Of a DNA stretch of 64,000 nucleotides, positions 38,131 through 62,126 are shown one piece after another. The stretch is from Burkholderia sp. lig30 (GTDB lineage Bacteria > Pseudomonadota > Gammaproteobacteria > Burkholderiales > Burkholderiaceae). Both the position numbers and the translations under genes were made by a program. Position 1 is the stretch's first letter. Each line of letters starts with the position of its first letter. The stretch covers positions 62,001-126,000 of the forward strand of contig NZ_JGVW01000053.1 in the NCBI RefSeq assembly GCF_000687455.2, read 5' to 3'. A model generated the notes under the pieces. That model did no database searches. It had not been told where the DNA came from and saw nothing but the letters and a program-made list of their open reading frames with translations.

Positions 38131-39126
38131 TTACGAAACGTAGGCGTCTTCGGGGCGCTTCCCGATCGCAATCCGCCCTTCTTCGGAAAGCTTGCGGACG
38201 ATCTGCAGGATTTCCCGCTGCTTCTCCTCGACCTCGGAGACACGCACCGGGCCCATTGAATTGATGTCCTCGACGAACAGCTCGGCGGCACGCTTCGACA
38301 TGTTCCCGACGAACTTCTGCCGCAACTGGGCATCGGAGCCCTTGATCGCGACGATCAGCGTCTGCGCGTCGACTTCCTTCAGCAGCAGCTGGATCGCCGT
38401 ATTGTCGAGATCCTGCAGATTGTCGAACGTGAACATCTTGTCGAGAATCTCTTGCGCGAGATCCGAGTCGTATTGGCGCACGTTCTCCAGTACGCTCTGC
38501 TCGAACGCGCTCTGCATGAAGTTGATGATTTCCGCGGCCGCGCCGGCGCCGCCGATCGGGCTGCGCCGGATGGTGTCGCCACCCGACAGCAGGTCCTTCA
38601 GCACGTCGTCGAGCTCTCTCAGCGCGATCGGCTGGATGCCGTCGAGGGTCGCGATACGCAGCAGCACGTCGTTGCGCAGGCGCTCCGGAAAGCTCGACAC
38701 GACTTCGCACGCCTGATCCGCATCGAGGTGCACCAGCACCGTCGCGATGATCTGCGGATGCTCCTTCTTCACCAGCTCCGCCACCGACGCCGCGTCCAGC
38801 CACTTCAGGCCTTCGATGCCGGTTGTCTCGTTCCCGCCCAGAATCCGCTCGAGGACCTGGCCGGCCTTGTCTTCGCCAAGCGCCGAGGTCAGCACGGAGC
38901 GCAGGTAGTCGTCCGAGTCGAGTGCGAAGGCGGTCTGGCTCTCCGAATCGCGGACGAACATTTCGAGCGTATCGCTCACCTGCTCGCGCGTCAGGTTCTT
39001 CAACGCCGCCATCGCGGCGCCGACCTTCTGAACCTCGCGCGGCCCCAGAAACTTGAATATCTCGGCGGCATGCTCCTGGCCCAGGGCCATCAGCAGAATC
39101 GCGCTACTCTTGATGCCTTCAGCGTT
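38131..39126 (-). CDS. fliG: Flagellar motor switch protein FliG
   Basis: From the GTG at 39126 the product is 331 residues, exactly the E. coli FliG length, and begins NAEGIKSSAILLMALG as FliG proteins do. The middle-domain KKEHPQIIATVLVHLD (EHPQ motif) and C-terminal torque helix (NMSKRAAELFVEDI, then GPVRVSEVEEKQREIL) with its charged residues are intact. FliG forms the rotor ring that contacts MotA. It is outside any fliEFGHIJ cluster and instead follows motA-motB, so it may be a second FliG. An ATG-like start 11 codons earlier is less likely. Confidence 0.93.
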   Translation of the reverse strand, partial: NAEGIKSSAILLMALGQEHAAEIFKFLGPREVQKVGAAMAALKNLTREQVSDTLEMFVRDSESQTAFALDSDDYLRSVLTSALGEDKAGQVLERILGGNETTGIEGLKWLDAASVAELVKKEHPQIIATVLVHLDADQACEVVSSFPERLRNDVLLRIATLDGIQPIALRELDDVLKDLLSGGDTIRRSPIGGAGAAAEIINFMQSAFEQSVLENVRQYDSDLAQEILDKMFTFDNLQDLDNTAIQLLLKEVDAQTLIVAIKGSDAQLRQKFVGNMSKRAAELFVEDINSMGPVRVSEVEEKQREILQIVRKLSEEGRIAIGKRPEDAYVS

Positions 39127-39813
39127 CACAGGAAATCCAGGTCTTGATAATGGCCGCAACCAGATCGCTTTTCAGTATTCGCCCCACAGACGCCGCGCAT
39201 CGATGCACGTCTGAAGCCCGGGGGCTGCGATCGTTGCCCCGCCGGCGATATCTCAAGCCGCTCAAGCCGCTTGCGACACCCTGATACGAACCCAACAAGC
39301 CATTCGCCCATCGCGCAGTTTGCCCGCGCAAACGTTCGCGATCCAAAACGGCAAAAAAACGTTCCCGCCATCCTCTGCGACCGTGCGTTTCATCGCCGTG
39401 CTCGACACACGATTCCGCCCCATATCAGAACATGCTTGCGCATTCAGGGAGACGAAGAACCGCAGGACGAACAACCGATCGACATGGAACACGGGGGAAC
39501 GATCCGGCCCTTTTGAAGCAACAGGCCTGACACGCCCAGACATTCCGCGCTTCGAACGACTCGTCTGGGCACGGTATTATGTGCACACGCCTTATTCGAG
39601 TCAAGCGGCCGGCAGGCCGCTCCCGCATGCCCCGGAATCGTGCTTTTTCGCCGGGATACGCAGGAAATGACGCCCACATGACACCCTGATCAATGGCAGG
39701 TCGCCGATGCGGGCGGCACGACATGGGCGCGGCAGCCGCCCGGTTCCGGAACGCGCGGACGACCGAGCGGACCGCAAGCAGCCAGGGGGCCACGCCCCCC
39801 TTCAGGCGCCCGC
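39127..39813. other. 687-bp gap between motB and fliG, no gene recognised
   Basis: Several short frames on both strands have no family features or good ribosome sites. The stretch is long for an operon of co-oriented motor genes. It may contain a separate fliG promoter or a decayed gene; I could not identify either. Confidence 0.5.
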
Positions 39814-40503
39814 TCAATACTGCACGATGATCGCCACGCGCCGGTTCGCCGCCCGCGAAGCCGCGTCGTCCCCCACTGCCAGCGGGAAATTGTCCGCGCG
39901 CCCGATCGCGGCCATGCGGTGGGGCTCGACACCCCGATCGACCAGATACCGCACCACCGCGCCGGCCCGCGCGGACGACAGCTCCCAGTTCGATTCGTAC
40001 TTGGCGTTGGAAATCGGCAGGTTGTCCGTATGCCCTTCGACGAGGATATTGCTCGCCGAATCCTGCTTCAGCACCTGCGCGATCCGGTTCAACGCGTCGA
40101 ACGAATCCGGCAGCAGCCTCGCGTCGCCGAAATTGAACAGGATCCTGGCGTTGATACCGATTTCGACACCGTGCGAGACGTTCGTCACCGTGATCTGCCC
40201 TTGCCGGTGCAGCGCATCCAGCAGCGTAAGCAGCTCCTTGCGGGCATTCTGCTGCGCGCGGGTGGCCTGCCCCGCGGCGCCGCGCTGTTGCGCCGCCTGG
40301 CTCTCGAGCGTCTGGTACCGCACCTCGAGCGTCTTGTACCTGGCGAGCTGCAGCACATAGAGCGCCACGAACAGCACCATCAGCGTGGTGATGAGATCCG
40401 CATAGGAGATCAGCCAGCGCCCGTGGTGCGTGCTTTCGCCGCCGTCTTCGTCGTGATCGGCCACGGCCGACGCCGCGCGCTTGTTACCGAAGGGCATTTG
40501 CAT
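39814..40503 (-). CDS. motB: Stator protein MotB
   Basis: A 229-residue stator subunit. A short cytoplasmic N-terminus, one membrane segment (WLISYADLITTLMVLFVALY) with the ion-binding Asp in YADL, a coiled linker, and a C-terminal OmpA-like peptidoglycan-binding domain (ILVEGHTDNLPISNAKYESN, then NRRVAIIVQY). It anchors the MotA ring and carries the proton or sodium path. It lies 60 bp after motA. Confidence 0.92.
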   Translation of the reverse strand: MQMPFGNKRAASAVADHDEDGGESTHHGRWLISYADLITTLMVLFVALYVLQLARYKTLEVRYQTLESQAAQQRGAAGQATRAQQNARKELLTLLDALHRQGQITVTNVSHGVEIGINARILFNFGDARLLPDSFDALNRIAQVLKQDSASNILVEGHTDNLPISNAKYESNWELSSARAGAVVRYLVDRGVEPHRMAAIGRADNFPLAVGDDAASRAANRRVAIIVQY

Positions 40504-40563: not shown

Positions 40564-41328
40564 TCAAGCGAGCGACTCGGCGGCCCGCCCGCGGACGTCG
40601 CCGGTCAGGCGCGTTTCGATCATCTGGGGCGATTCCTTCCGCGAGATCGCGAGCAAGCCGTCGAGATAGAGCTTGCGGAACCGCACCTCGCTCTCCACCT
40701 GCCCGCGCAGCTTTCCATACAACGGCAGGAACACCAGGTTGGCGAGCCCGAGACCGTACAGCGTCGCGACAAACGCCAACGCGATCCCGGACCCGAGCTG
40801 CGCGGGCTCGAGAATATGGTTCGTGACCTGGATCACCCCGAGCACCGAGCCGAGGATGCCGAACGTCGGCGCATAGCCGCCCGCCTGCTGCCAGACACGC
40901 GCCGCCGACATGTGACTGCGCTCGTACGCGTCCAGCTCGCGCTGCAGCGCGTCTTCGAGCACCGCGGTCGGCACGCCGTTGGCGAGCAATTCGAGGCCGC
41001 GCCGCGCGAACGGGTGAATGCCGGTGACATCCATCGACTCGAACGCGAGCAGCCCGTTCAGCTTCGCCTGGTCGCCCCATTCGAGCAGATCCGACAGGCT
41101 CTTTCGGTCGACTTGCCGCGCCTGCACGAACGCGAGGCGCAACTGCTTCAGCGCGTCGAAGAAGCGCGACCACGTGCTCTGGATCATCACCGCGCCGAGC
41201 GTGCCGCCGAACACGATGACGAAGGCTTCGAGCTGGAACAGCGTCGAGAGATGACCGCCCTCGAGCGTATACCCGAAAACGATCGCCATCGCGGCGAACA
41301 CCACCCCGAACAGCGTCAACAAATCCAT
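40564..41328 (-). CDS. motA: Stator protein MotA (MotA/PomA family)
   Basis: A 254-residue stator subunit of the shorter PomA/MotC-like class. Four hydrophobic segments are visible, including AFVIVFGGTLGAVMIQST and YAPTFGILGSVLGVIQV, with the charged cytoplasmic loop between segments 2 and 3 that touches FliG. Whether it uses protons or sodium cannot be told from these residues. It is followed by motB and preceded by the cyclic-nucleotide/FliG-like gene on the same strand. Confidence 0.92.
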   Translation of the reverse strand: MDLLTLFGVVFAAMAIVFGYTLEGGHLSTLFQLEAFVIVFGGTLGAVMIQSTWSRFFDALKQLRLAFVQARQVDRKSLSDLLEWGDQAKLNGLLAFESMDVTGIHPFARRGLELLANGVPTAVLEDALQRELDAYERSHMSAARVWQQAGGYAPTFGILGSVLGVIQVTNHILEPAQLGSGIALAFVATLYGLGLANLVFLPLYGKLRGQVESEVRFRKLYLDGLLAISRKESPQMIETRLTGDVRGRAAESLA

Positions 41329-41398: not shown

Positions 41399-42652
41399 TC
41401 ACTGCGCGGCGCCGGCAGACGGCTCCGGCTTGGCGGCAGGCGCCTTGATCGCGCGCACGGCATCGAGCAGCTGCTGCTCGATCTCCACGACCTCGACCGG
41501 ATCGATCTTGATGTCGCGCCGCATCACCCACGACACCTCGTTTCTCCGGGCTTCCGTCATGACCGACAACAGCCGGTCCCCGACGGCCTGGTCGCCGAGG
41601 CTTGCGATGAGCTTGGCGAGATCGTACGTGTCGAAGGCGCTCACGACGTCGAACAACGTGCGCTGATCGACCATCATCAGATCGTCGAGCGACTCGATCT
41701 CGCCGAGCCGGCGGGCATTGCGCCGCGAGAAATAGGCGACGCCCTTTTGCTCGACGTAGTTCAGCACGCGGGATTTCCGGAACGCGAATACGTCGTCGGC
41801 GATCTCGCCGTGCGACAGCTTGTTGAGGATCATTTTCCGGTCGACGCCGATCAGCGATTCGAGATCACTGAGTTCGATCAGCTCGAGATCGCTGTTGATC
41901 GCCATGTCGAGATCGTGGTCCGCGACCTGCTGGGCGCGGTCGGCGATGCGCGCGGAATCGAACGTGACGACCTGGCGAGCGGCCGCGCCGTCGCTCACGG
42001 TATGTTCCGGCGCCACGCTGGCCAGTTGATCCGCGGTGCCGGCCTCGATCGTGACAAGGTTGAGCTTTTCCATCCGCTTGAGCATCGCCATCACGTGCGG
42101 GCGCGAATGGCCGGCGATCGCACGGCACTTCCTGATCACCTCCGAGAGCGGCACCGAGACTTCGTCGACCTGCACCTGCATCGACCGCCGCGCCCACGAG
42201 TCGCCGCCATCGCGCCGCGCCGGGCCCGCCATCAGCGCCAGCACGTGCGCGTAGGACAGCACGCCCGGCAGGAAGTCAGCATGCGTATAGGTCGCGAGCA
42301 GATCGTCCTTGCGCTTCACCCGGCGAATCATCGTTCGCAGGATATGGCGCAGCAGCGGCGACGTGCGCTCGGTTTCCTCCTCCACCGTAGCGGCCGGCAC
42401 CACCGTCAGCTGGCAGAAGGTGAGCGCCTTGGCGGTGTTGCCGCGCGGCTCGTCGGCTGAAAGAAGCGCGGTCTCGCCGAAGAATTCGCCTCGCCCCAGC
42501 GTGGCGATGATGACTTTCTTCTCGTCGCAGCGCGTGGACAGCTCGACCTTGCCGTCCGCGATCAGATAGATGACGCGCTCGCCGACGTAACCTTCCGAAT
42601 AAATGACTTCGCCCGGAGCCGCCGTGCGCGACCACGATTGTTGACTGTTCAA
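41399..42652 (-). CDS. Cyclic-nucleotide-binding protein with FliG C-terminal-like domain
   Basis: A 417-residue protein. Residues about 10-110 are a cyclic-nucleotide-binding domain (GEVIYSEGYVGERVIYLIAD, then the phosphate cassette GEFFGETALLSADEPRGNTA, whose Arg is present). A CRP-like helical segment (VPLSEVIRKCRAIAGHSRPH) follows near 165-185. From about 315 the sequence follows the pattern of the neighbouring FliG C-terminal domain: LDDLMMVDQRTL, DTYDLAKLIASLGDQAVGDR and DPVEVVEIEQQLLDAVRAI. The TTG start at 42652 has GGGGA upstream. It heads the motA-motB operon under a sigma-28-like promoter. A role as a ligand-controlled rotor or stator modulator is inference. Confidence 0.75.
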   Translation of the reverse strand: MNSQQSWSRTAAPGEVIYSEGYVGERVIYLIADGKVELSTRCDEKKVIIATLGRGEFFGETALLSADEPRGNTAKALTFCQLTVVPAATVEEETERTSPLLRHILRTMIRRVKRKDDLLATYTHADFLPGVLSYAHVLALMAGPARRDGGDSWARRSMQVQVDEVSVPLSEVIRKCRAIAGHSRPHVMAMLKRMEKLNLVTIEAGTADQLASVAPEHTVSDGAAARQVVTFDSARIADRAQQVADHDLDMAINSDLELIELSDLESLIGVDRKMILNKLSHGEIADDVFAFRKSRVLNYVEQKGVAYFSRRNARRLGEIESLDDLMMVDQRTLFDVVSAFDTYDLAKLIASLGDQAVGDRLLSVMTEARRNEVSWVMRRDIKIDPVEVVEIEQQLLDAVRAIKAPAAKPEPSAGAAQ

Positions 42653-43100: not shown

Positions 43101-45545
43101 TCAGGTCTTCGCATTGCGCAGCCGTAGTGCGTTTGAAATGACGGATGCCGAACTCAAGCTCATCGCCAGCGCTGCAATCATCGGCGAGAGCAACAGGCCG
43201 GTGAACGGATACAGCACGCCTGCCGCCAAAGGGACGCCAAGCGCGTTGTAGACAAACGCGAAGCCGAGGTTCTGCTTCATGTTGCGGACGGTTGCCTCGG
43301 ACAGTTCCCGAGCGCGCGCGATACCGCGCAAATCGCCCTTGACGAGCGTGACTTGCGCGCTGCTCATCGCGACATCGGTGCCGGTTCCCATCGCCACGCC
43401 GACATCGGCCTTCGCGAGCGCCGGTGCATCGTTAATGCCGTCCCCGGCCATCGCCACGACATGTCCGGCGTGTTGAAGCTTCGTCACCAGGTCGAGTTTG
43501 TCGGCGGGCTTGACCTCGCCGTGAAATTCATCGACGCCGAGTTTTTCGGCAACCGCCCTCGCCGTCACCACACCATCGCCGGTCGCCATCACGACGCGGA
43601 TGCGATTTTCCTTCAATGTCGCGAGCGCTTCCGGCGTGGTTGTCTTGATCGGGTCGGCGACCGCCAACAGTCCGGCCAGGCGACCATCGACCGACAAGTA
43701 CATGACACTGGCGCCTTGTGCGCGCATACGGTCCGCTTCCTGCGCCAGCGGCTCGACGGACACCTGGTCGGCCTGCATCAGCACCGTGTTGCCGAGCGCC
43801 AGCCGACGGCCAGCGACCCGCCCGCGCACACCGATGCCTGTCGCGGATTCGAAGGCCTCCGCCCGGTCCAGCGCAAGACCTTTTTCGCGTGCTGCCTTCA
43901 CGATGGCGGCAGCCAGCGGATGCTCGCTGCCCTGGTCCAGGCTCGCGGCCAGCCGCAGCACCTCCTCGTCCGCGAATCCGTTTGCGCCCGCGGCGCGCTC
44001 GAACGCGGGACGGCCCTCGGTCAGCGTTCCCGTCTTGTCGACGATGAGGACGTCGACCTTGCGCAGATTCTCGATGGCGGCCGCGTCGCGGAAGAGCACC
44101 CCGCTTGACGCCCCCTTGCCGCTCGCCACCATGATCGACATCGGCGTCGCGAGCCCGAGCGCGCAAGGACACGCAATGATGAGCACCGCGACCGCATTGA
44201 TGAGACCGAATACCCAGCTGGGCTCGGGCCCGGCGATACCCCACACGAAGAACGTCAAAAGCGCGACGCTCACGACGCCGATGACGAACACGCCGGCCAC
44301 CTTGTCCGCCATTCGCTGCATGGGCGCGCGAGAACGCTGCGCCTGCGCGACCATCTGCACGATTTGCGACAACACCGTCTGGGAGCCGACCTTTTCAGAG
44401 CGAATGACCAGACTGCCGGCCGCATTCATCGTCGCACCAATGACGTGGTCGCCGACGCGCTTCGTGACCGGAATGGGCTCGCCGGTGATCATGGACTCGT
44501 CCAGCGAACTCGAGCCATCGGTCACGACGCCATCCACGGGGACTTTCTCGCCGGGCCGAACACGCAGCAGATCGCCCACATGCACGTGGCCCAGCGGGAT
44601 GTCCTCCTCGGAGCCATCCAGGTTGATGCGGCGCGCCGTCTTCGGCGCGAGGCCCAGAAGCGCCTTGATCGCCGCTGACGTCTGCGAACGCGCCTTCAGC
44701 TCCAGCAATTGGCCCAGAAGCGTAAGAGAGATGATGACCGCCGCGGCCTCGAAATACACGCTGACGCGCCCGTGCGCGCTGTACGTCTCCGGGAACAGCC
44801 CGGGAAAGACCGTCGCGATGACGCTGTAAACGTAAGCCGCGCCAGTCCCGAGCCCGATGAGCGTCCACATGTTCGGACTGCGATTGATGAACGAACGCAC
44901 GCACCGCGCAAAGAACGGGAAGCCGGCCCAAAGGACAACGGGCGACGAAAGCGCGAATTCGACCCAGCTCTCGGTCGATGCCGGCATCCATTCGAACGCG
45001 TGACCGAACATCGCCAGCACGAAGACGACCGCCGTCAGCGGCAGTGTCCACCAGAATCGGTGCCGGAAATCGACCAGCTCGGGATTTTCGCTTTCCTCCA
45101 GATTCGGCAGAATCGGTTCGAGCGTCATGCCGCACTTCGGGCACTGGCCCGGATGGTCCTGACGGATTTCCGGGTGCATGGGGCACGTGTAGAGGGTGCC
45201 CTCCGGCATGGGCGCCGGCGACTCCGCCATCGATGGCGCGACGTATTTCGCCGGCGCCGCCTGAAATTTCGTCAGGCAGGCCTGGCTGCAAAAGAAGTAG
45301 GGCTTCGCGTCGTATTCGCTGCGGAAGCGCGATGTCTCCTTGACCGGCATCCCGCACACGGGGTCGTGAAGCTGCGCCCCCTCGGCGCCAGGGTCGCGGC
45401 GTGCCTCGCCGTGATGCGCATGCGCGTCATGCTCATCCTGACCGGAATGATGGTGCTCACACGTGTCGTGGACATAATGTGTACCTGACGCGTGCGCTGA
45501 AACCGGCTGCTGATGTGGCCCGTGGGCTTCACGTTGACCGTTCAT
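43101..45545 (-). CDS. copA: Copper-exporting P-type ATPase with YHS and His-rich N-terminus
   Basis: An 814-residue P1B-type ATPase. It starts with a His-rich tail ([20 protein letters not shown]), then a YHS domain ([14 protein letters not shown]) and a heavy-metal-binding YTCPMHPEI...CPKCGM segment. There is no classical GMxCxxC domain. The metal-path CPC ([13 protein letters not shown]), phosphorylation site [19 protein letters not shown] and [10 protein letters not shown] are intact. It pumps Cu(I) from the cytoplasm. It follows cueR on the same strand. Confidence 0.93.
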
Positions 45546-45620
45546 CTTGGCGCTCCTTCGTTATTTGCACTGAATCGGGGTTATTCATACCCGGTTTGCG
45601 AGCCAGTCTTCTGTCCTGAG

Positions 45621-46022
45621 TCAATCGCAATGCGTTTGCCCGGCCAACTCGGCCAATATCGGACAGTCCGGGCGCGAGTCGCCCTTGCAGTGCTCGGCCA
45701 GATACTGGAGTGTGTCCCGCATTTCGACGAGTTCGCGGATACGCTCGTTCAGGTCGTCGATGTGCTGCGTCACGAGCTGCTTGACCTCGCTGCTGGGACG
45801 CTCCCGGTCTTCCCAGAGCGCCAGCAATGCCGAAATCTGTTTGGTCGAAAAACCAAGATGTCGCGCCCGGCGCACGAAGCGGAGGACTTCGACATCCTTG
45901 GCCGTGTAGACCCGGTAGTTCGACTCCGTCCGCGTCGCAGGCCGGATGAGTCCGGCCTCTTCATAGTGACGAATCATCTTCGCTGAAACGCCAGAAGATT
46001 TCGCGACCTCGCCGATATTCAT
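45621..46022 (-). CDS. cueR: MerR-family copper-responsive regulator CueR
   Basis: A 133-residue MerR-type regulator. The N-terminal winged helix (MNIGEVAKSSGVSAKMIRHY), a dimerising helix and the C-terminal metal loop CKGDSRPDC (Cys-x7-Cys) mark it as a Cu(I) sensor of the CueR kind. The ATG at 46022 has GGAGA upstream; ten further upstream codons are unsupported. It precedes the ATPase gene and is itself preceded by a CueR-type operator, so it autoregulates. Confidence 0.92.
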   Translation of the reverse strand: MNIGEVAKSSGVSAKMIRHYEEAGLIRPATRTESNYRVYTAKDVEVLRFVRRARHLGFSTKQISALLALWEDRERPSSEVKQLVTQHIDDLNERIRELVEMRDTLQYLAEHCKGDSRPDCPILAELAGQTHCD

Positions 46023-46071
46023 GCGTCTCTCCTTCAGTGGAACTCCCACCATCTGATGAACTGCATCTTCA

Positions 46072-46096
46072 ACCTTCCCACATTGGGAGAGTCAAG
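46072..46096 (-). promoter_or_regulatory. CueR operator/promoter
   Basis: On the minus strand TTGACT is followed by the dyad CTCCCAATGTGGGAAGG, the arrangement of MerR-family copper promoters with a long 19-20-bp spacer. It lies about 50 bp upstream of cueR and reads toward cueR-copA. Confidence 0.75.
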
Positions 46097-46211
46097 GGCG
46101 CCGGTATCACCGCACCAGGACTCAGGCGGCCCACCGGATAAGTCAGTCATTCCAGGTGAGAGACTTCCTGCGCAGCACGCGCTGTTTGCCCCAGGTGGAG
46201 CCGATGTGGCG

Positions 46212-46529
46212 TCAAGGTGCCGAAGCCGCAGCCGTCCGCACACGCCAGAAACGCTCAACAGGAATGACGGCCACGATTCCATCCCCTCCCGATTGTTCGT
46301 TTGCGACACTGATTATTTCCTTCGTAATCGCGTCGACGTTATCCGCTGCCGTGAAGACTTCAATCTTGATGTGCTCCGTCGTCCAGTCGCTGGCGAAGAG
46401 ATTGGGGTGCACACCAAATCCCCTGACGCTGGTCACCGTCATTCCGTGAATGTGCAGCGCGCACAGTCGTCTTTCGAGCACGTTCAACGCGTCGGGACGC
46501 ACCACCGCGATAACGCATTTCAGTTCCAT
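46212..46529 (-). CDS. PII-like signalling protein in copper cluster
   Basis: A 105-residue protein of the GlnB/PII superfamily: ELKCVIAVVRPDALNVLERR at the start and the C-terminal GGDGIVAVIPVERFWRVRT strand. The T-loop region (GFGVHPNLFASDWTTEHIKI) is shorter than and unlike that of GlnB, and the uridylylation Tyr is absent. It stands between cueR-copA and the cus genes, far from nitrogen genes, so a metal-linked role is likely, inferred from position. Confidence 0.75.
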   Translation of the reverse strand: MELKCVIAVVRPDALNVLERRLCALHIHGMTVTSVRGFGVHPNLFASDWTTEHIKIEVFTAADNVDAITKEIISVANEQSGGDGIVAVIPVERFWRVRTAAASAP

Positions 46530-46656
46530 GGCATTCTCCTGTTTCCGAATACGGGCGGCGGCCGTTCATCCCTTTGACACCCATAGTGCGTTGACGGCCG
46601 CCTCACTCTGTCCCGCATCCTGAATTCCGGCCTGCGTCAGCGATATCAGCACACCG

Positions 46657-47016
46657 TCAGGACTGCTTCACCAGCTTCACGATGGTGAGCGTTCCGTTGA
46701 TGCTCTCGACACGGACCTTGACCTTGTCGCCCTCGTGAATCCGCTTGACCATCGCGGCATCCCTGGCCTTGAACGCCATTGTCATCGGCGGCATGCCGAC
46801 GTTTTCGAGTGCACCATGCTTCAGCGTGACCATGCCGCTGGCGGCATCGACCTTCTTCACCTCCGCGTCGGCGAGCATGGCATTCGACGATGTCGAAGTC
46901 GAAGCCGACGCCTTCATCGGCATGGTCATGCCGGCCATGTCATCGCCAGCAAATGCCGGCGCAGCGAATGCGCCAATTGCGCAGAAAGCGATAGTGGTAA
47001 CAAACAGCTTCTTCAT
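46657..47016 (-). CDS. cusF: CusF-like periplasmic copper-binding protein
   Basis: A 119-residue exported protein: signal peptide to AAPAFA, a Met-rich start ([10 protein letters not shown]), then the CusF fold ([20 protein letters not shown]) with the copper ligands His and two Met. It hands Cu(I) or Ag(I) to the CusCBA pump. Its start overlaps the cusA stop by four bases. Confidence 0.92.
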
Positions 47017-50000
47017 TGCGTTTCTCCAGGTTGGCTAGATGGCACCTTCATGCCGGATGGGACGACATCGAACGTCTGCGACGGGTTCGGGTTTCGCGCG
47101 CGGCGGCGCTGCAACAGAAACCAGGCCGCGGGGATAACGAACATGGAAAGCAGCGGCGCAGTGACCATGCCGCCGACCATCGGGGCGGCAATACGTTGCA
47201 TCACTTCGGAACCGGCACCGTGGCCGACCATGATGGGAACAAGGCCGGCCAGCACGACAGCGACCGTCATCGCCTTGGGGCGCACGCGCAGTACGGCACC
47301 TTCGCGAATCGCGTCGAACAGCAGCGCTTCCGTGAGTGGCTCGCCGGCTTCCAGCCGGCGGTTCAACGCGCCCTTCAGGTATAACAGCATGACGACGCCG
47401 AATTCGGCCGCGACGCCAGCGAGCGCGATGAAGCCGACCGACGTCGCGACAGAGACCGCGTGGCCCAGCCCCCAGATCAGCCAGAAGCCGCCGACGAGCG
47501 CGAACGGCACGGTCGACATCAGCAACAGCGCGTCCGCTGCGGAATTGAACGTCAGGAACAACAGCACGAAGATGACGACGAGCGTCACCGGGATAACCGT
47601 GCGCAGCTTCGCCGCTGCTCGCTCCAGATACTCGAATTGCCCGGACCAGGCGATTGAATAGCCCGGGGGCAGCTTGACCTGCCGCGCAACGGTCTTCTGC
47701 ATCGTCTGGACCGCGGACCGAAGGTCCGTGTTACGAATATCGACGTACACGTAGCCTGAGAGACGCGCATTTTCGCTACGAATCATGGGCGGGCCGTCGG
47801 CAATCGTGATGCGAGCGACGTCGCCGAGCTGGATTTGCGCGCCACGGTCCGTGACAACCGGCAGTTGCCGCAGCCTCTCGAGCGAGTCGCGGACTTCGCG
47901 CGGGTAACGGATATTGATCGGGAAGCGCTCCCGGCCGGCAATCACTTCGCCAACGTTTTCTCCGCCGACGGCCGACGAGACGACCGACTGGATGTCCGCG
48001 ACTGAAAGGCCATACCGTGCGGCCGCGAGCCGGTCGATGTCGACATCGATATACCGGCCGCCGTTCAGCCGCTCCGCCAATGCCGAGGTCACACCCGGCA
48101 CGCCCTTCACGGCGGTTTCGACCTGCGTCGCAATACGGTCGATTTGCGTCAGGTCGGGACCGGAAATTTTGACCCCGACCGGCGTCTTGATACCCGTGGA
48201 CAGCATGTCGAGACGATTGCGAATGGGCGGCACCCACACGTTCGACAGGCCCGGCACCTTGACGGTCCGGTCCAGCTCGTCGACCAGTTTCTCCGGCGTC
48301 ATGCCCGGCCGCCACTGGCTGCGCGGCTTGAACTGAATCGTTGTCTCGAACATCTCGAGCGGTGCCGGGTCCGTGGCCGTGTCGGCGCGGCCGGATTTGC
48401 CGAATACCGTCGCCACTTCAGGCACCGTCTTGATGAGCCGGTCGGTCTGCTGCAGCAACTCGGACGCTTTCTCCGCCGAAATTCCCGGCAGCGCGGTCGG
48501 CATGTACAGCAAATCGCCCTCGTCGAGCGGCGGCATGAACTCGCCCCCAAGACGGGAAACCGGGATGAGGGTCAGCGCGAGAGCCACGCCTGCCAGGCCG
48601 ATGGCGAGCCAGGGGCGCATCAGTGTTGCCTCGAGCAGCGGCTTGTACAGCCGAATCAGCACGCGGTTGATGGGGTTCGCGCTCTCGTGCGGAATGCGTC
48701 CACGGATGAGATATCCCATCAGCACCGGCACGAGCGTCACCGACAATCCGGCAGCGGCGGCAATCGTGTACGTCTTCGTGAATGCAAGTGGCGAGAACAG
48801 CTTGCCTTCCTGACCTTCCAGTGAGAACACCGGAATGAACGACAGCGTGATGATGAGCAGCGAGAAGAACAGCGCCGGCCCGACTTCCGCCGCGGAGGTC
48901 GCGATGAGCTCCCAGCGATGCGCCGTCGACATCGGCACACCCGTGTTCTCGTGCTCATACGCCTCCAGGTGCTTGTGCGCGTTTTCTATCATCACGATGG
49001 CCGCGTCAATCATCGCGCCAATGGCAATCGCGATGCCGCCCAGCGACATCAGGTTCGCATTCACGCCCTGGTAGCGCATGACGATGAACGCGGCCAGGAC
49101 GCCGAGCGGCAGCGACAGGATGGCGACGAACGCGCTTCGCATGTGAAACAGGAACACCGCGCAAACGAGCCCGACGATGATGAACTCCTCGATGAGCTTG
49201 TCCTTCAGGTTGTCCACGGCGCGTTCGATGAGCTGCGAGCGGTCGTAAGTCGTGACGATCTCGACACCGGGCGGCAGTGAGCGCTTCAGGTCGGAGAGTT
49301 TGGCCTTGACGGCGTCGATGGTCGTCAACGCGTTCTTGCCCGAGCGCATGACGATGACGCCACCCGCGACTTCTCCTTCGCCGTTCAGTTCGGCGATGCC
49401 ACGACGCATCTCGGGACCCGTCTGGATGCGCGCAATGTCTCCGAGCAGCACTGGCGTACCGGCGTCATTCGTTCGCAGCACGATATTGCGGAAGTCGTCG
49501 AGCGAGCGCAGGTAACCGGACGAGCGCACCATGTACTCCGACTCGGCAAGCTCGACCACCGAGCCACCGGACTCCTGGTTGGCCTTGCCCAGCGCATCGG
49601 CCACCATGGATTGCGTAATGCCGTAGGCGCGCAATTTGTCCGGGTCCAACACGACCTGATACTGGCGCACCATCCCTCCGATGCTCGCGACCTCGGAGAC
49701 GTCCGGCACCGACTTCAGTTCGAATTTGAGGAACCAGTCGTTGAGCGCGCGCAACTGCCCGAGATCGTGTTGCCCGCTCCGGTCGACGAGCGCGTACTCG
49801 TACACCCAGCCGACGCCCGTTGCATCAGGACCGAGCGAGACGGTCGCGCCTTGCAGGAGGCGGCTTTGCACTTGATTCAGGTACTCCAGCACACGCGAGC
49901 GCGCCCAGTACTGGTCCGTCCTGTCGTCGAACAGCACGTAGACGAACGCGTCACCGAACGACGAGTACGCGCGAATGGTTCTGGCGCCAGGCACGCCGAG

Positions 50001-50219
50001 CAGCGTCGTCGTCAGCGGATACGTGACCTGGTCCTCGACGACCTGCGGCGCCTTGCCCGGATACGACGCCTTGATGATGACCTGCGTATCCGACAGGTCC
50101 GGCAGCGCGTCGAGCGGCGTTTCCTTCAGCGAGTACACGCCCCATGCCGTCACCAGCATGGTCGCGAGCAGCACGAGGAACCGGTTGTGAATCGACCAGC
50201 GAATAAGGCGCGCAATCAT
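47013..50219 (-). CDS. cusA: HME-RND copper/silver efflux pump CusA
   Basis: A 1068-residue RND transporter of the heavy-metal type, with twelve membrane segments in two sets around large periplasmic loops. Typical CusA/CzcA blocks include [38 protein letters not shown] and [19 protein letters not shown]. It exports Cu(I)/Ag(I) from periplasm or membrane through CusC. It overlaps cusB and cusF by four bases on either side. Confidence 0.95.
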
Positions 50220-61871: not shown

Positions 61872-62126
61872 ATGGACGATGACTCACGCAGTTCGCGTCC
61901 CTTCTGGAAATCGCGCGCCGCGATCGCATGGCTGGTGTTCGGCGCGATAGCGATGTTCCTCTTGCTGTCGGAGCACCGTGCCCACGTTCTGGGGGTGTTG
62001 CCCTACCTGCTGCTCTTCTCCTGCCCCTTGATGCATCTGTTCATGCACCATGGACATCATCACCATGGCGAGGGGAAAGGCGATACGCACGCCGATTCGG
62101 GAGAGAACCATGCGCGGCACGGGTAG
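61872..62126 (+). CDS. DUF2933 small membrane protein
   Basis: An 84-residue protein with two membrane segments (AWLVFGAIAMFLLLSEHRAH and LPYLLLFSCPLMHLFMHHG) and a His-rich tail (HHGHHHHGEGKGDTHAD). DUF2933 proteins accompany heavy-metal genes and a methyltransferase-like membrane protein. It overlaps the next gene by 17 bp. Confidence 0.8.
   Translation: MDDDSRSSRPFWKSRAAIAWLVFGAIAMFLLLSEHRAHVLGVLPYLLLFSCPLMHLFMHHGHHHHGEGKGDTHADSGENHARHG

Follow-up and report, generated by a model that had tools for sequence, protein, structure and literature searches.

Introduction

Direct control of the flagellar motor by a second messenger is known for cyclic di-GMP (c-di-GMP), which acts through PilZ proteins. 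Here, we describe a gene of Burkholderia sp. lig30, located in a stretch of 64,000 nucleotides (positions 62,001 to 126,000 of contig NZ_JGVW01000053.1; hereafter, the window), whose 417-amino-acid (aa) product, called the regulator for brevity, carries a cyclic-nucleotide-binding (CNB) domain, a probable winged helix, and a C-terminal domain similar to that of FliG. The c-di-GMP/PilZ brakes YcgR and FlgZ are nucleotide sensors acting on MotA, FliG or MotCD, the last being the target of FlgZ, and the portions of these reports covered here do not mention that either is obligately paired with stator genes, as is seen for the regulator (PMC12943098, PMC8036289, PMC13432727). The 417-aa protein resembles them as a protein predicted to sense a nucleotide and to act on MotA; however, it has a CNB domain instead of PilZ and c-di-GMP, and Pfam (E ≤ 1) detected no PilZ domain in it. 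To our knowledge, neither a winged helix nor a FliG_C-like domain occurs in YcgR or FlgZ.

Transcription factors of the CRP/FNR type and Bd2879 of Bdellovibrio (9sfa), in which a CNB domain precedes two winged helices, share the order of CNB domain and winged helix (probable in our case) with the 417-aa protein, but the part of the Bd2879 report that was available describes no FliG_C-like domain (PMC12750041). The torque domain of FliG has the same fold and profile family as the C-terminal domain of the 417-aa protein, which differs from FliG in that this domain is joined to a CNB domain, FliG_N and FliG_M are not detected by Pfam, and the torque charges are altered in the Burkholderia subfamily. 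We know of no stator operon associated with the CRP/FNR factors or Bd2879, and of no CNB-FliG_C partner of the Pseudomonas stator MotCD. In Burkholderia terrae, three motA/motB pairs were reported and a MotCD homologue was not found, as far as the available part of that report goes (PMC5462819). The co-occurrence of CNB and FliG_C on single proteins is already flagged in sequence databases, where these proteins are named Crp/Fnr regulator, cAMP-binding protein or cyclic nucleotide-binding protein. No description of a CNB-FliG_C protein or of its stator pairing was found in the open-licence literature, most subscription papers being outside this scope. Because the literature covered consisted of open-licence texts with few subscription papers among them, the novelty of the regulator and its pairing is provisional.

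Results and Discussion

Pairing of the regulator gene with motA2 and motB2

The regulator is obligately paired with a stator operon. Its gene (41399..42652, minus strand) is a single open frame with a TTG start, and the next two genes on the same strand encode the partner stator subunits A and B, motA2 (40564..41328, minus strand) and motB2 (39814..40503, minus strand). MotA2 matched NF006583, a model of the MotC type, with 254.6 bits (cut-off, 237). MotB2 contains MotB plug and OmpA domains, and its top NCBIfam model was MotD, with 185.2 bits under a cut-off of 283. In these respects the pair resembles Pseudomonas MotCD, from which it differs in being paired with a CNB-FliG_C regulator. The order regulator-motA2-motB2 on one strand was found in 41 of 41 family loci of named genomes, a 42nd locus (L044) having been dropped because of a CNB match only. 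Both the regulator and motA2 were present in 51 of the 65 genomes of the genus. According to a row-by-row comparison by eye, the same 51 genomes carry both genes as neighbours on one strand, and the other 14 carry neither.

When 399 genomes of the order were searched at E ≤ 1e-20, two carriers were obtained, both in the genus of the window, and none of the 11 remaining genomes sampled from the family contained the regulator at this threshold. Paraburkholderia, Caballeronia, and Trinickia nevertheless do carry it, with P. graminis and P. phenoliruptrix among the carriers. In three of four distant carriers, motA and motB were located downstream of the regulator gene; two MotAs and two MotBs were confirmed by Pfam and the third pair was recognized by eye. 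No motA was seen on the 8.8-kb contig of the distant carrier L117. In another distant carrier, an open reading frame (ORF) with a CNB-like sequence (L115:7849-8322) was noticed by eye between the CNB-FliG_C gene and motA.

The MotA residues that meet FliG in known motors correspond to R90 and E98 of E. coli. MotA2 has a positive residue, K89, and E97 at these positions in 42 of 42 sequences. In three distant MotAs the glutamate is retained, but I, M or L takes the place of the FliG-pairing arginine. This replacement would suit a triad that forms a separate, non-flagellar rotary device, in which MotA2-MotB2 turn or pull the FliG_C-like protein itself. In the lig30 genome, moreover, the triad and the clusters of fliF and fliM lie at separate places, and inspection by eye of 8 to 18 kb around the four distant genes revealed no flagellar gene, in genomes that were not searched for flagellar genes. 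However, fliG was present in 64 of the 65 genomes of the genus and in 50 of the 51 triad carriers, the exception being a triad carrier whose genome is 82% complete, and MotA2 of Burkholderia and the sister genera keeps both charges. A separate device is considered distinctly improbable.

Domain architecture of the 417-aa protein

The CNB domain together with the helix following it occupies residues 10-116 (42305..42625, minus strand). A preliminary description of the gene had recognized this domain and its phosphate cassette, and both were borne out: cNMP_binding (PF00027) matched residues 10-93 with 64.8 bits (cut-off, 27.5), and the cassette residues E60, R70, T73, and A74 were present in all 41 family rows. 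E60 and R70 were also present in all 13 rows of an alignment including distant members. From the cassette alone, the ligand is predicted to be cyclic AMP (cAMP) or cyclic GMP. The window copy has one additional residue in the phosphate-binding loop, D67 (42452-42454), which is missing from the other 40 of the 41 rows. The score against the CRP equivalog NF008732 was 34.4 bits, below the cut-off of 266. Pfam, at E ≤ 1, detected cNMP_binding and FliG_C only, with no FliG_N or FliG_M.

Residues 124-205 (42038..42283, minus strand) probably form a winged helix-turn-helix (HTH), the fold being weakly shown, and may bind DNA. The CRP-like helices of the middle region were noted in the preliminary description, but the probable DNA-binding domain had been overlooked. 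The following block, residues 227-317 (41702..41974, minus strand), has no assigned fold; it showed a mean majority of 0.85 and 36 invariant columns out of 91, and matched neither Pfam nor NCBIfam models at their cut-offs. Within it, residues 247-300 (41717-41920) have by eye the look of an HTH of the MerR/excisionase type; the fragment of residues 245-312 gained no support from hidden Markov models (HMMs). A second HTH of this type thus gained no support: with eight fragments, the cut-off was reached by no model of either library, and two gave a chance-level PH-like match. A search of the genome with HTH_17 gave a single place, located elsewhere. Tandem FliG_C repeats involving residues 244-316 were rejected (hhalign P of 0.052 for the C-terminal part and 0.24 for FliG_C).

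The FliG_C-like domain corresponds to residues 318-405 (41438..41701, minus strand). In the window copy, FliG_C (PF01706) scored 17.4 bits (E of 0.0053), below its cut-off of 23.3. This cut-off was passed by six of ten chosen members, by four of four distant homologues, and by two further homologues, P0130 and P0131. A further homologue search gave seven proteins, of which P0132 and P0133 were dropped as TPR-CNB proteins without FliG_C and P0129 was left out of the scan. Structural comparison of the predicted model gave the FliG C-terminal fold for residues 318-405. On the basis of this model and the family matches, the domain shares its fold and profile family with the C-terminal domain of FliG, as the preliminary description had supposed.

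Proposed role of the regulator

The combination of a cAMP-type sensor with a probable DNA-binding and a torque-like domain on one protein, whose gene is tied to second stator genes, suggests an undescribed route by which a nucleotide signal could reach a rotary motor. We favour, with about even confidence, the explanation that the 417-aa protein is dedicated to the second stator MotA2-MotB2, which it regulates in response to a nucleotide, docking on MotA2 via the FliG_C-like domain. The N-terminal domain, with its intact cassette, would bind a cAMP-type nucleotide, and the winged helix would bind DNA. The FliG_C-like domain would dock on the cytoplasmic loop of MotA2, as is predicted from its fold, from the obligate pairing of the genes, and from the charges kept in MotA2. 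Nucleotide binding would switch the protein between stator-docked and DNA-bound states, by which stator use and gene expression would be adjusted together. The main output could be either on the stator, as a clutch or through competition with FliG, or on DNA. Given the probable DNA-binding domain, an effect on transcription is no less likely than a mechanical effect. The nucleotide-gated rotor- or stator-binding protein envisaged in the preliminary description agrees with the cassette, the FliG_C-like fold, the motA pairing in 51 of 65 genomes, and K89/E97 in 42 of 42 sequences, but not with the torque charges. In a more specific and rather unlikely version, the protein would be a stator-tethered, nucleotide-gated transcription factor, whose rotor-mimicking FliG_C-like domain sits on idle MotA2-MotB2 and is displaced when the rotor is engaged, so that load or surface contact is passed on directly to gene expression under a cAMP-type licence; on this view, the triad of some distant carriers may even operate where no flagellum is present. 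If the favoured explanation is true, nucleotide signalling, stator choice, and transcription would be physically linked in a protein inherited with its own stator, which bears on the problem of how load on the motor is relayed to gene regulation.

Several results weigh against the favoured explanation. The homology is faint: hhalign of the subfamily against 32 FliGs gave P of only 0.016-0.038, and an HMM built from 32 FliGs scored the window copy at 7.2 bits, a value exceeded by 4 of 2,091 shuffled or reversed sequences, and 29 of 41 family rows at only 2.9-6.1 bits. The C-terminal profile found no FliG among PDB sequences, where its one match was a glycogen phosphorylase (E of 0.29), and no FliG in its own genome at E ≤ 10. 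The torque-helix charges of FliG, K264, R281, D288, D289, and R297, fall on A350, A368, W375, V376, and D384 in the structural register, and thus none of the five keeps its sign. This register was deduced from match ranges, without a printed alignment, and is almost gapless. In addition, no clear CRP-like operator was present in the 300 bases upstream; the best match (8 of 10 positions) occurred in 8 of 40 related sequences (shuffles, 9%, none higher) and was not taken as evidence because the 40 sequences are related.

The HMM register differs from the structural one, aligning the invariant R369 to R281 of FliG. The distant group keeps an arginine at R281, as judged by eye, and P0121 additionally retains the aspartate of D288 and the arginine of R297. 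From the two registers and these residues, the surface of the C-terminal domain appears to be conserved, yet not FliG's own. Such a surface fits an altered partner interface without proving one.

The lost torque charges would also be expected of an ordinary CRP-type transcription factor for the neighbouring stator genes, in which the FliG_C-like domain serves for structure or dimerisation and makes no contact with MotA. The combination of CNB domain and winged helix is the CRP plan, and the putative recognition helix carries an invariant segment. Furthermore, the top Foldseek match of the whole-protein model was Bd2879 (E of 3.7e-3), though with a template modelling score of 0.18 and a root-mean-square deviation of 19.5; the mean predicted local distance difference test score of this model was 50.5, and only its better parts were used elsewhere. 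On the other hand, this explanation does not account for the choice of FliG_C as the added domain or for its association with motA-motB in three of four distant relatives, and the 300 bases upstream show no clear CRP-like operator. It is regarded as possible but somewhat unlikely.

The neighbouring fliG copy and genomic surroundings

A copy of fliG (38131..39159, minus strand; probable GTG start at 39129) adjoins the triad in the lig30 genome. Together with the FliG_C-like fold, this location would suit a brake or adaptor on the rotor side, whose C-terminal domain serves as a mimic of or substitute for FliG_C in the C-ring, or attaches to rotor proteins rather than to MotA. However, FliG_N and FliG_M, the parts holding FliG in the rotor, were not detected in the protein by Pfam at E ≤ 1, and no fliG was found in the flanks of the loci of 41 of 41 relatives (up to 10 kb, shorter for some). 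A rotor-side role is likewise considered distinctly improbable. The line-up with the adjacent FliG that the preliminary description reported was right as to FliG_C likeness, whereas this neighbour does not belong to the conserved unit.

Pfam search located FliG_C at two places in the genome, the fliG copy of the window and one on contig 82, which are 95-96% alike. Neither is in the fliF operon, where fliH comes 113 bases after fliF; in two relatives examined, fliG is between fliF and fliH. The window copy shares 63-68% identity with the main fliGs of the other genomes in the genus. Since the usual place between fliF and fliH lacks fliG in this assembly and the main fliGs are only this similar, the fliG beside the triad is a relocated or replaced fliG of the lig30 genome, outside the conserved locus of the family. 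The contig 82 copy adjoins a 903-aa ORF that looks by eye like a surface protein. Three genomes of the genus (G410, G417, and G437) have a second fliG, 29-31% identical to the window copy, which perhaps represents a second flagellar system.

Two short palindromes upstream of the regulator gene were shared by several of the 40 related sequences (11 and 9, respectively). Upstream of the triad (43101-50219), ordinary-looking metal-resistance genes were recognized by eye, namely those for a P-type ATPase, a MerR-type regulator, and a large RND-type efflux pump.
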